From a virus, in the IMG/VR virus record IMGVR_UViG_3300030450_001218, positions 1 through 24,916 of that record: 24,916 nt of DNA. One strand, given 5' to 3'. Each line of letters starts with the position of its first letter. The stretch's first letter is position 1. Shown here in pieces: positions 41 through 2,913 of the stretch. A program made the translations under genes and the position numbers. The notes beneath the pieces are model-generated. The model did no database searches. It was given only the letters and a program-made list of their open reading frames with translations, and was not told the DNA's origin.

Positions 41-400
41 ATGCCAAAATTACATCAAGACATTGCGAACAATGTCGATTATGCTTCAGAGACTAAAGCC
101 GAGAAGCTAGAAAGGTACCTTATTCAAGGTACAAATACAGGAAAAACTGCAAAGCAGTTTTACCAAGGATTGCTTCAAGAAGCAATAGATCCTCTTACAG
201 AGGATCAAATATCTCTCATCAAAGAGATGAGAGGTCAAGTAAGAAATAACAATTGCAATTGTTATTTGCCAAAATTTATCTCCGATAAATTATGGTATTC
301 CGAGCAACTTGAAGTTGCTAAAGAATCCAAAAACAAGTTTGTTTTTGAAAACATATTTTCCCTTCCGATTGTATCGGATAAATGGAAAGTAAAAAGTTAA
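41..400 (+). CDS. Small hypothetical phage protein (119 aa)
   Basis: I do not recognise this protein. It is hydrophilic and mixed-charge, with no signal peptide, membrane segment or obvious motif; a short Asn/Cys patch (NNNCNCY) lies in the middle. The frame is open back to a TTG at 11, but a strong GGAGG at 31-35 sits five bases before the ATG at 41, so I take 41 as the start. It is the only gene before the terminator at 425-461 and is separated from the packaging and structural genes by about 770 nt, so it probably ends an upstream transcription unit rather than opening the late operon. No function is proposed. Confidence 0.72.
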   Translation: MPKLHQDIANNVDYASETKAEKLERYLIQGTNTGKTAKQFYQGLLQEAIDPLTEDQISLIKEMRGQVRNNNCNCYLPKFISDKLWYSEQLEVAKESKNKFVFENIFSLPIVSDKWKVKS

Positions 401-424
401 GCTAAAGCTTAACTCCTTTGAATG

Positions 425-461
425 AGGGAGGGTGCGAAGCACCCTCCCTTTTATTTTTTTT
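425..461 (+). terminator. Intrinsic terminator after the first gene
   Basis: A perfect inverted repeat pairs 425-435 with 439-449 (AGGGAGGGTGC / GCACCCTCCCT) across a GAA triloop, followed by a T-rich tail to 461. Stem, loop and U-tract are textbook for a rho-independent terminator reading on the + strand. The C(GAA)G loop is the same element as the very stable GCGAAGC mini-hairpin. Confidence 0.93.
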
Positions 462-473: not shown

Positions 474-681
474 TGCTACAGCAAGTGGCTGTAGCATTGC
501 AAATGCTCAGGCATTTGCATAAAAATTGCTCTAAAGGTATTATGGCACATATGGCACACATATAAAAAGAGCAATTTTTTGCATTGCCTGTGGCAATGAG
601 CAAACGGAGTTTGCTACCCCTCGGAGGCAATGCTTCGCATTTGCAAGCTTCGCTTGCTACTCGCTGTCGCGAGTTGCCTCC
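474..681. other. Dense hairpin array with a cloverleaf-like fold
   Basis: This gene-free stretch is almost entirely made of inverted repeats. Read 5' to 3': 474-482/488-496 (9 bp, 5-nt loop); 498-506/511-519 (9 bp, loop TCAG); 521-532/568-579 (12 bp, 35-nt loop holding two ATGGCACA copies); 582-588/592-598 (7 bp, loop TGT); 599-605/609-615 (7 bp, loop GGA). Then an outer 8-bp stem, 623-630/674-681 (GGAGGCAA / TTGCCTCC), encloses three small hairpins: 631-633/637-639, 643-648/652-657 and 660-664/669-673. It could be a structured RNA, an extruding DNA element or a protein-binding region. It matches no RNA family I can name, and the short stems and loops rule out a tRNA. Confidence 0.7.
515..543 (+). 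promoter_or_regulatory. Possible promoter inside the hairpin array
   Basis: TTGCAT at 515-520 and TATTAT at 538-543 are 17 bp apart. The -10 matches consensus at five of six positions, the -35 only at three. The arms of the 12-bp inverted repeat (521-532 and 568-579) flank the -10 box and the expected start near 550, as an operator could. A transcript from here would carry the cloverleaf-like fold. This is prediction only. Confidence 0.3.
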
Positions 682-682
682 T

Positions 683-742
683 CCCCCCACCCTGCCACCC
701 TTCCCTGCCAGCACCCCCTCCCCACCTGCCACCCCCATCCCC
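683..742 (-). other. C-rich tract; bottom-strand G-quadruplex motif
   Basis: In 60 nt the + strand has eight C-runs of three or more (683-688, 690-692, 698-700, 703-705, 714-718, 720-723, 732-736, 739-742) and only four G. The bottom strand therefore has eight G-tracts. The set at 683-705 fits the canonical quadruplex rule, with bottom-strand loops of 2, 5 and 1 nt. CCTGCCA recurs at 691-697, 704-710 and 725-731. The tract directly follows the cloverleaf-like fold and contrasts sharply with the AT-rich surroundings. Open frames across it on either strand give proline- or glycine-rich nonsense, so I do not call a gene. Confidence 0.75.
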
Positions 743-876
743 GAAGGTATCAAAAGTGGTCTGAGTTAAGAACTTAGCTACTGAGTATGGTGTTATCTGT
801 TTGTCTTTGTATGTGCTAGGGGGTAGGGCTTAGAGTTTCGTTGGTTGGTTTATATATACCTATGACAAAATTTTTT

Positions 877-906
877 TTGCAAAAAGTGATTGGGTGTAGC
901 TATTAT
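877..906 (+). promoter_or_regulatory. Possible promoter of a short leader or sRNA
   Basis: TTGCAA at 877-882 and TATTAT at 901-906 are 18 bp apart. A transcript starting near 913 would contain the hairpin at 927-953 and stop at the terminator at 1067-1103, giving an RNA of about 190 nt without a gene. The bases between 743 and 876 hold nothing I can identify apart from a short G-rich patch near 828-838. Confidence 0.33.
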
Positions 907-926
907 ATGCTAAGTGGTATAGCAAA

Positions 927-953
927 TGTTCTCCCTTTTAATTAGGGAGAACA
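927..953 (+). other. 10-bp hairpin in the terS leader region
   Basis: TGTTCTCCCT (927-936) pairs perfectly with AGGGAGAACA (944-953) over a 7-nt TTTAATT loop; AGCA/TGCT outside could extend the stem past small bulges. A T5 run follows after about four bases, so it could be a weak terminator. Its CTCCC/GGGAG core is complementary to other stems in this region, so alternative pairings are possible. Confidence 0.6.
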
Positions 954-1029
954 ATGCTTTTTGGTAGATGTTATCCCTTCCCCTTTGCAAATTATACTGC
1001 AATAGCAAAAAAATAGTCAAGCGAATAAA

Positions 1030-1114: not shown

Positions 1115-1143
1115 TTGACTCATGGAGCCAACACAGTTATTAT
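1115..1143 (+). promoter_or_regulatory. Sigma70-like promoter of the late operon
   Basis: TTGACT (1115-1120) and TATTAT (1138-1143) are separated by 17 bp; each box matches consensus at five of six positions. The expected start near 1150 leaves a very short leader with AGGAG at 1153-1157 nine bases before the terS ATG. The site lies just after a terminator, which supports it as the first promoter of the packaging and structural genes. A host-polymerase late promoter means no phage RNA polymerase is needed here. Confidence 0.62.
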
Positions 1144-1166: not shown

Positions 1167-1592
1167 ATGACAAAAAATAATAAAAAGAAAGAGAAATTTT
1201 TAGAGAAATTTAAAGAAATAAAGACTGTATATACTACTTGTCAAGTTGTCAATGTTCCAAGACGAACATTGTATAATTGGTTAAAAGAAGATCATGAATT
1301 TAAAGCTGACTTTGATGAAATTAGACTAGGTATTGGAGATGATTTAGAAAGTAAGGCATTTCAATTAATAGACAAGATGATGGAAAAGGGTGATTATGGT
1401 AGACCTGTTTTACTTATAACTATGTTAAATGCTAACAATAGTAAATACAAAACAGCAGATAATACTTCAGATGAATCTAGACAATTAATGGAAGATTTCA
1501 GAAAAATGGCTGCAGAAAATAAGAAGAAACCTACTAAATCTAAGGCAGTTAAGGAAGCAGAGGACATAATTAATGACTCAGAGTCAAAGTGA
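1167..1592 (+). CDS. terS: Terminase small subunit
   Basis: This is the probable DNA-recognition subunit of the packaging motor, 141 aa, within the usual small-terminase range. Residues about 10-50 resemble the helix-turn-helix of phage terminase small subunits: a helix, then a Cys-Gln-Val-Val-Asn-Val-Pro turn, then a recognition helix ending RRTLYNWLKED. The middle is predicted helical and fits an oligomerisation domain; the C-terminal 40 residues are Lys/Glu-rich and probably flexible, as in the part that contacts TerL. AGGAG lies nine bases before the ATG. The last 20 nt overlap terL, which strongly supports the assignment. The call rests on the HTH plus position; sequence identity in this family is always low. 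Confidence 0.85.
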   Translation: MTKNNKKKEKFLEKFKEIKTVYTTCQVVNVPRRTLYNWLKEDHEFKADFDEIRLGIGDDLESKAFQLIDKMMEKGDYGRPVLLITMLNANNSKYKTADNTSDESRQLMEDFRKMAAENKKKPTKSKAVKEAEDIINDSESK

Positions 1593-2913
1593 GCTAACAG
1601 ATTTTCTTTATGAGAAGGTAGGGTTTGATCCTACTGATGAACAAAGAGTAATATTAGACTCAGATAAAAGATTTACACTTGTAGCAGGTGGAGAACAGGC
1701 AGGAAAAAGCATGATTGCTAGTAAATTCTTGTTAAAAAAGACATTTGAAACAGAAAATCCAGGATTATATTGGCTAGTTGCTGCAGATTACGGCAGAACT
1801 AGGGCAGAATTTGAATATTTAATAGAAGATTTTGGTAAACTAGGCTTATTAAAGAAGGCATCTAAGAGAGTAGATCCAGGTAGAATTGAATTAGCTGATG
1901 GTACAGTAATAGAAACCAAGTCAGCCAAAGATCCTAGAACTCTAGCTATGAGAGCACCCGATGGAATCATAGGATGTGAGGCTAGTCAGTTAGATTTAGA
2001 AAGTTATTACAGGATAAGAGGTAGATGTGCACCTAAAGCAGCATGGATGTTTCTAGCAGGAACATTTGAGGGTAGCCTTGGATGGTACCCTTCGTTGTTT
2101 CAGGCATGGAAGTACGGAGATAAAGACGAAAAATCTTTTTCTCTCCCTTCTTATACTAATAAACACTTATATCCAGGAGGTAAAAATGATCCAGAGATAC
2201 AAAAACTCAAGAATGAGGCTAGTGATGATTTCTTTATGGAAAGGATTGAAGGTATTCCTTCTCCACCTACGGGAATCGTATTCCAAGAATTCAGAAGTGA
2301 CAGACATATATCAGAAAAGGCTAGCTATGTACCAGGGGAACCAGTCCACTTGTGGATGGACCCAGGTTATGCAGGCGGCTATGCTATCGAAGCGATACAG
2401 ATCAGCGATGATCAAGTTAGACTTATCGATGAAGTCTACGAAAAATCTTTAATTACTGAGGAAATGATTAACATTTGTCAGAATAGAGAGTGGTGGAGTG
2501 ATGTGCAGTTTGGAGTAATTGATGTAGCAGGGTATCAGCATCAGGCTATGGCAGCTCCTGCTGAAGTTTGGTTAAATGAAACAGGATTATATTTAGATTC
2601 TCAGAAAGTAAAGATTAATGATGGTACAGAAAAATTAAAATCTATGTTAAAATTAGCTCCAAATGGTGAGCCAAGATTAATAATTAACCCTAAATGTAAA
2701 GGAATCTTGTCAGAGTTTGGTGCAGCTCCTAATCCATTTAATGGACAGACACTTGTTTACAAGTGGAAAACAGATAGAGATGGAAATATAGTTGGCAATC
2801 AGCCTGAAGATAAGTATAATCATGGTGTGAAAGCTGTAATATATGGCTTGATTAATCATTTTGGTTATGCACATATAGAAAATAGAAGCACAATTCGTGT
2901 AAAGAGGTGGTAA
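1573..2913 (+). CDS. terL: Terminase large subunit (ATPase-nuclease)
   Basis: This is the motor that pumps DNA through the portal and cuts it, 446 aa, normal size. The N-terminal ATPase has a Walker A GGEQAGKS at residues 39-46 and a Walker B-like DGIIGCE ending at Glu136, followed by a coupling-type segment FLAGTFEG. The C-terminal RNase H-like nuclease shows three well-placed acidic residues: Asp263 in LWMDPGYAGG, Asp317 in VIDVAG and Asp413 in EDKYNHGVKAVIYGL. GAGGA lies eight bases before the ATG, inside the end of terS, so the two are translated together. The stop overlaps the portal start in a TAATG. No motif appears lost, so I expect an active enzyme. Confidence 0.96.
   Translation: MTQSQSELTDFLYEKVGFDPTDEQRVILDSDKRFTLVAGGEQAGKSMIASKFLLKKTFETENPGLYWLVAADYGRTRAEFEYLIEDFGKLGLLKKASKRVDPGRIELADGTVIETKSAKDPRTLAMRAPDGIIGCEASQLDLESYYRIRGRCAPKAAWMFLAGTFEGSLGWYPSLFQAWKYGDKDEKSFSLPSYTNKHLYPGGKNDPEIQKLKNEASDDFFMERIEGIPSPPTGIVFQEFRSDRHISEKASYVPGEPVHLWMDPGYAGGYAIEAIQISDDQVRLIDEVYEKSLITEEMINICQNREWWSDVQFGVIDVAGYQHQAMAAPAEVWLNETGLYLDSQKVKINDGTEKLKSMLKLAPNGEPRLIINPKCKGILSEFGAAPNPFNGQTLVYKWKTDRDGNIVGNQPEDKYNHGVKAVIYGLINHFGYAHIENRSTIRVKRW

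Follow-up and report, generated by a model that had tools for sequence, protein, structure and literature searches.

The window, by which we mean the whole stretch of DNA analysed, is a linear virus sequence of 24,916 bases from an uncultured marine phage, in which an array of hairpins precedes the DNA-packaging genes. The features of the locus are compiled in Table 1.

Table 1. Genes, hairpins and predicted signals of the array-terS region (window positions).
Feature	Position	Strand	Basis or remark
Small ORF, ATG at 41, SD-like GGAGG upstream	41-400	+	contains 11 perfect hairpins
Hairpins within the small ORF	59-76, 115-132, 143-161, 169-186, 188-206, 213-233, 244-267, 273-291, 303-319, 328-347, 364-378		stems 6-11 bp, loops 2-5
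9-bp hairpin	395-414		over stop codon of the small ORF; inverted-repeat search
Intrinsic-terminator-like hairpin (rightward), 12 pairs, loop GAA, T-rich tail	424-461	+	terminator-like end of the small ORF
9-bp hairpin with T9 tail on the minus strand	474-496 (with tail 465-496)	-	leftward terminator-like
9-bp hairpin, loop TCAG	498-519		inverted-repeat search and fold
Hairpin, 12-bp arms, 35-nt loop	521-579		inverted-repeat search and fold
Two abutting 7-bp hairpins	582-598, 599-615		inverted-repeat search and fold
Cloverleaf-like four-way fold	623-681		fold as RNA and DNA
Outer 8-bp stem of the four-way fold	623-630/674-681
Inner hairpins of the four-way fold	~630-640, 643-657, ~660-673
C-rich, G-poor tract closing the array	678-743		GC skew -0.39 to -0.46
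Conserved block in the array-terS interval, with predicted leftward transcript start	835-1010		sequence conservation
Leader hairpin, 10 bp	927-953	-	compensatory changes across relatives
P_L, sigma-70-like, TTGACT-18-TATAAT (11/12)	991-1020	-	promoter scan
Rightward promoter-like site TTGACT-17-TATTAT before terS	1115-1143	+	promoter scan
terS	1167-1592	+	PHROG match; anchor gene of the locus
terL	1573-2913		further head genes also present

The original prediction described a gene-free stretch of 208 nt (474-681) before terS with at least eight inverted repeats, the last four of them forming a stem around three hairpins. All of the repeats it named were recovered by an inverted-repeat search and by folding, no known gene was placed in the stretch by the ORF list or a PHROG search, and terS, as judged from its PHROG match, indeed starts downstream. 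In the minimum-energy fold, five consecutive hairpins precede the four-way structure, exactly as claimed. Its z-score is -5.9 as RNA and -9.5/-8.7 for the two strands as DNA; none of 200 shuffles folded as well, and six perfect hairpins compare with a shuffle mean of 0.44 (maximum 3). What had to be revised is the extent of the array: 474-681 is only its last third, since perfect hairpins run from about 59, inside the ORF of 118 aa, across that ORF and on to 681. Positions 1-700 contain 20 perfect hairpins (stem of 6 or more, loop of 2-6), as opposed to a mean of 1.2 and a maximum of 5 in 300 shuffles. Across 620 kb of sequence from 67 other viral contigs, the densest 640-nt stretch holds 8 hairpins; that of the window holds 20. 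The array is real and non-random. A tRNA or tmRNA identity of the cloverleaf was rejected, ARAGORN reporting 0 genes. The loop of the 521-579 hairpin holds a tandem direct repeat, TATGGCACA-TATGGCACA, at 541-558, and the minus strand of the C-rich tract carries many G-runs, several of them of three or more G, which could make a quadruplex or an R-loop.

The hairpins within the small ORF exceed what its coding content would yield, as 500 synonymous-codon shuffles gave a mean of 1.2 and a maximum of 5. No homologue of this ORF was found among phages or in IMG/VR, PHROGs and Pfam, and a comparison with the 119-aa ORF of the related loci L001, L003 and L011 did not support homology.

Some of the hairpins resemble transcription signals. 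A GC-rich stem followed by a T-run, as in an intrinsic terminator, is present at 424-461 (plus strand) and 496-465 (minus strand), and the 521-579 hairpin is terminator-like both ways, with A5 and T5-6 in its arms. Terminator-like sites number 9 against 1.5 expected, and 21 against 2.9 in a second count, an excess that follows partly from the hairpin density itself. A palindrome, AACACAGC-AA(A)-GCTGTGTT, precedes small genes in two relatives (L003, 2179-2199 and 2730-2748; L011, 2907-2924), in one case being placed between -35-like and -10-like boxes, and is likely to represent a phage repressor operator. The form AACACAGC-AAA-GCTGTGTT stands before two L003 genes. Terminators and operators of the usual kind, clustered between transcription units and inflated by chance, would accommodate both the surplus of terminator-like sites and this operator-like palindrome, but not the hairpin density noted above (20 against at most 8 per 640 nt), nor an ORF full of hairpins, nor multi-branched outer stems, which are useless to a terminator; already unlikely on these grounds, this explanation retains very little probability.

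A leftward promoter faces the array from the terS side. Near-consensus leftward promoters of the P_L type are kept in about 20 relatives and read into the block; the form found in the window is conserved in L001, L003 and L011, while a perfect TTGACA-18-TATAAT (12/12) occurs upstream of terS in L007-L010, L012, L016, L017, L020-L022 and L043. The arms of the leader hairpin differ among relatives and remain paired, the variants being GTTCTCCC/GGGAGAAC, GTTATCCCC/GGGGATAAC and GCTCTCCC/GGGGAGAGC. The first strong leftward terminator-like site in the window is the one at 496-465, which predicts a leftward RNA of ~520 nt (984-465) that would include the 474-681 stretch. Judged from these signals, leftward transcription of the block is likely. 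The same relatives that have the leftward promoter also have a rightward TTGACT-17/18-TATTAT before terS, corresponding to the site at 1115-1143 of the window. In relatives a palindrome (in L003, AGTTGACT...AGTCAACT) overlaps this rightward site and probably serves as an operator for the late genes.

For comparison, 80 IMG/VR loci were obtained from a TerL search. In the same position, flanked by a leftward gene block on one side and terS on the other, arrays were found in L001-L005, the closest relatives (97-98% TerL identity), and in L011 (94%), and four lineages carry such arrays at the locus, namely the window, L003 with its strains, L001, and L011. The densest 640-nt stretches of L003, L001 and L011 hold 17, 15 and 11 hairpins, respectively. 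In L003, 2.46 kb folds as nested, tree-like hairpins with nearly all bases paired. The arrays of L002, L004 and L005, which come from other metagenomes, match that of L003 at 99.7-99.9%; since the array recurs in separate metagenomes, an assembly artefact can be ruled out.

The sequence of the window array had no detectable homologue among phages, in IMG/VR, PHROGs or Pfam, or in the arrays of L001, L003 and L011. Likewise, a search for the L003 array among phages gave no match, and a search for further array carriers through the conserved flank returned already-known contigs only. The 3' flank from about 819 is nevertheless ~90% identical between the window and L003, and the TerL proteins are 98% identical; at fourfold sites of terL the window and L003 differ by 12%, as compared to 15.6% for L001 and L003. 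Because an unrelated array is combined with a ~90% identical flank and a similar TerL divergence, the window array was probably exchanged as a cassette instead of diverging in place.

Many of the TerL-related loci lack a perfect-hairpin array, and in several of these relatives (among others L007, L014, L018, L020 and L021) the locus is nevertheless occupied by a noncoding block that folds strongly. Away from the locus, hairpin density is low in the genomes checked. An element at 3640-3790 of L007, with homologues in L008, L043, L020 and L021, combines a conserved apical AATCCT(N6)AGGATAA with a covarying outer stem, and in these relatives, which have no perfect array, such elements lie within the leftward leader. 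A search with the apical motif gave 69 matches, which by our own estimate is about chance level except for the known relatives.

The replacement of the array bears on the suggestion, also made in the original prediction, that the stretch is a cis-acting DNA element, which might be a single-strand or cruciform replication origin or a cos/pac packaging site beside terS. Its location about 0.5 kb upstream of terS, the formation of DNA hairpins on both strands, and the presence in relatives of a RusA-like protein (recognised by eye, with no Pfam match) are consistent with such a function. Near-identical terminases would, however, be expected to keep a recognition sequence, whereas here sequence and length of the array are wholly different between phages with 98% identical TerL; moreover, many relatives do without a perfect-hairpin array and no initiator gene was identified. 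We consider a replication or packaging element improbable.

The covariation evidence comes from the arrays of L001, L003 and L011 and from the leader hairpin, the hairpins of 474-681 having no homologue to compare. When L001 and L003 are compared, changes affect 28 of the 912 sites in stems and 41 of the 286 that are unpaired (Fisher p = 7e-11), so that change in stems is about five times rarer than in loops; as the structures were predicted from the sequences under comparison, pairing in the reference is favoured by this procedure. Among 21 changed pairs, seven are altered on both sides and still paired, four of the seven belonging to one hairpin. Adjacent late genes of the two phages show 12-16% divergence at fourfold-degenerate positions, similar to that of the loops, and for this reason the loops appear to evolve almost neutrally and the stems under constraint, with the proviso that one early gene differs at 3% only and the yardstick is therefore not uniform. 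Comparison with L011 added more compensatory pairs, as well as a hairpin with a completely exchanged inner stem that is again perfect. Two compensatory differences distinguish the tandem copies at 2497-2556 and 2569-2628 of L003, and one stem shows an A-T to T-A double change between L002 and L003. The covariation proposed as a check was seen in the arrays of relatives and in the leader hairpin, although it does not extend to the 474-681 hairpins themselves. Selection very probably maintains pairing at this locus.

The composition of the stems points to their origin. In the predicted array stems 1-5% of the pairs are G-U on either strand, as against 10-14% in shuffles and 8-13% in RNase P sequences folded by the same procedure, and the arrays fold equally on both strands. 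One-sided pair changes, compared in order to tell RNA from DNA, show no preference for G-U (85 GT and 104 AC, pooled), but this is a weak test, as the RNase P control gave just 34 to 27. Exact loop inversions distinguish L001 and L003 (gca/tgc and cttt/aaag), and another (tgt/aca) separates the near-identical L005 and L003; such inversions account for only about 3 of the 11 loops that changed. Both multi-pair compensation and loop inversion characterise template switching in the course of DNA replication (PMC8794818). The arrays show its marks, i.e. perfect Watson-Crick stems with few G-U pairs, together with loop inversions and multi-pair compensations in small numbers, and on balance template switching appears to be the main source of the hairpins.

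Coding sequence seems to be affected as well. Genes in the L003 array region contain two hairpins each, while homologues of the two shortest ones outside arrays contain none or one. L003 encodes a 53-aa cysteine-rich protein (2784-2942) whose C-terminal tail is specified by a long inverted repeat; its 43-aa homologue in L043 (875-979, minus strand) lies outside an array and lacks the tail. The tail is possibly coding sequence born through fold-back copying.

Low G-U content and equal folding of both strands suit a palindrome acting at the DNA level at least as well as a leader RNA. The strongest rival explanation takes the array as a set of DNA palindromes that hardly functions as RNA, if at all. 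It would be a hot spot linked to replication, where template switching goes on and is tolerated because it lies between early and late transcription units. Loop inversions, multi-pair compensations, whole-stem replacement, the gain of hairpins by coding sequence within the array, and the fact that the hairpins are mostly unrelated in sequence count in its favour, and the mechanism has been described (PMC8794818). Neutrality, on the other hand, predicts equal divergence of stems and loops, and stems diverge about five times less; we assign this explanation a rather low probability.

Alternatively, small mobile palindromic elements of the Volvox organelle, REP or Rickettsia type might have inserted in one another and in genes. 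Nesting, loops of mostly 2-5 nt and hairpins within ORFs would fit, and nesting with short loops is indeed known from Volvox organelle palindromes (PMC2670323). Copies of a palindromic repeat family (Volvox, REP, RPE) share sequence, whereas the hairpins within one phage array are mostly unrelated, apart from a single tandem duplication and two or three units that recur, and hairpins are scarce elsewhere in the genomes checked. Already weakened by these observations, an origin from mobile palindromes is quite improbable.

We tentatively favour the interpretation, with slightly less than even confidence, that the 474-681 locus belongs to a structured RNA, either a leader or a noncoding RNA, transcribed from the leftward early promoter and formed by a hypervariable cassette of nested hairpins that template switching makes and selection retains. 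Host RNA polymerase would start at P_L (about 984), transcribe the conserved leader hairpin (953-927) and proceed leftward across the G-rich tract, then the four-way fold and finally the five hairpins, to stop at the minus-strand terminator 496-465; the resulting RNA of ~520 nt would consist mostly of hairpins. The small rightward gene would be a separate unit closed by the terminator-like hairpin at 424-461. New hairpins would arise by fold-back template switching at the DNA level, which writes the reverse complement of a sequence beside its source; the same process would correct mismatched stems, invert loops and rewrite short genes within the array, while selection would retain pairing and not letters. 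Transcription, RNA ends and template-switch origin are what we infer from the signals and comparisons described above. Small rightward ORFs lying inside arrays speak against a use of the locus in the leftward direction only.

Of the structured RNA, replication origin and packaging element originally proposed, a structured element is upheld by folding and compensation at the locus in relatives, whereas origin and packaging gained no specific support. Structured RNA fits best among the three, given the conserved leftward promoter that is directed into the block. As to its role, we can only guess: it may be a structured noncoding RNA, or a leader that acts as terminator, antitermination element or insulator and sets early transcription apart from late; any specific role in termination, antitermination or insulation seems rather unlikely. 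A more far-reaching possibility, in which fold-back copying ever writes perfect hairpins and selection keeps nothing but pairing, giving a letter-independent, fractal RNA or DNA in which small genes are rewritten too, is conceivable but doubtful.

Among bacterial genome records, the closest TerL relatives are 54-57% identical and belong to Dehalococcoidia/Chloroflexota MAGs, which suggests a marine Chloroflexota host for the phage group; the loci of these closest relatives show no array. Relatives in such MAGs (L102-L106) span 37-57% identity.

How long perfect stems originate and persist is an open problem in RNA-structure evolution. The present locus is a compact natural case, rich in hairpins and offering both recent strain pairs and replacements between close relatives, in which births, corrections and loop inversions due to template switching can be counted and separated from selection. 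Close relatives keep a folded stretch while its letters change, so that folding itself seems to be preserved. The locus could show structured RNA or DNA, and even pieces of genes, arising through fold-back copying. Should the leftward RNA exist, it would represent a large, structured type of phage RNA that escapes sequence-based RNA searches, because the letters are not conserved.

The Rfam search called for as a check returned nothing at the gathering threshold for the window, L003, L001 and L011, with GOLLD and ROOL included, and weak matches far below the thresholds when these were relaxed. We found no description of such hairpin arrays in phages in the open-access literature. Early-promoter leader RNAs serving antitermination are known from lambda (nut) and HK022 (put). 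These likewise have hairpins right downstream of an early promoter, a position that would fit the predicted leader; the comparison is one of position, and the phage region here is far larger and hypervariable. Rho-independent terminators share the stem and T-run of the two sites at 424-461 and 496-465, but account for two or three of the window's 20 hairpins. The ornate RNAs GOLLD, ROOL and OLE are also large and multi-branched, and GOLLD and ROOL are phage-encoded (PMC12286853); their pairing is kept by covariation, to which the compensatory changes in L001, L003, L011 and the leader hairpin may correspond. The phage arrays differ from them in having no Rfam match, almost no conserved sequence and few G-U pairs, and in being replaced between close relatives; moreover, the RNA is here predicted from sequence. 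Volvox organelle palindromes are nested, short-loop hairpins filling noncoding DNA, but they form families of similar sequence (PMC2670323), whereas the phage hairpins are for the most part unrelated, occur at a single locus and extend into ORFs. Similar in their features are the hairpins attributed to template switching, with perfect Watson-Crick stems, several compensations per stem and inverted loops; those are single events in rRNA and microRNA genes (PMC8794818), while in these phages the same character extends over an entire locus, as long as 2.5 kb and including coding sequence.
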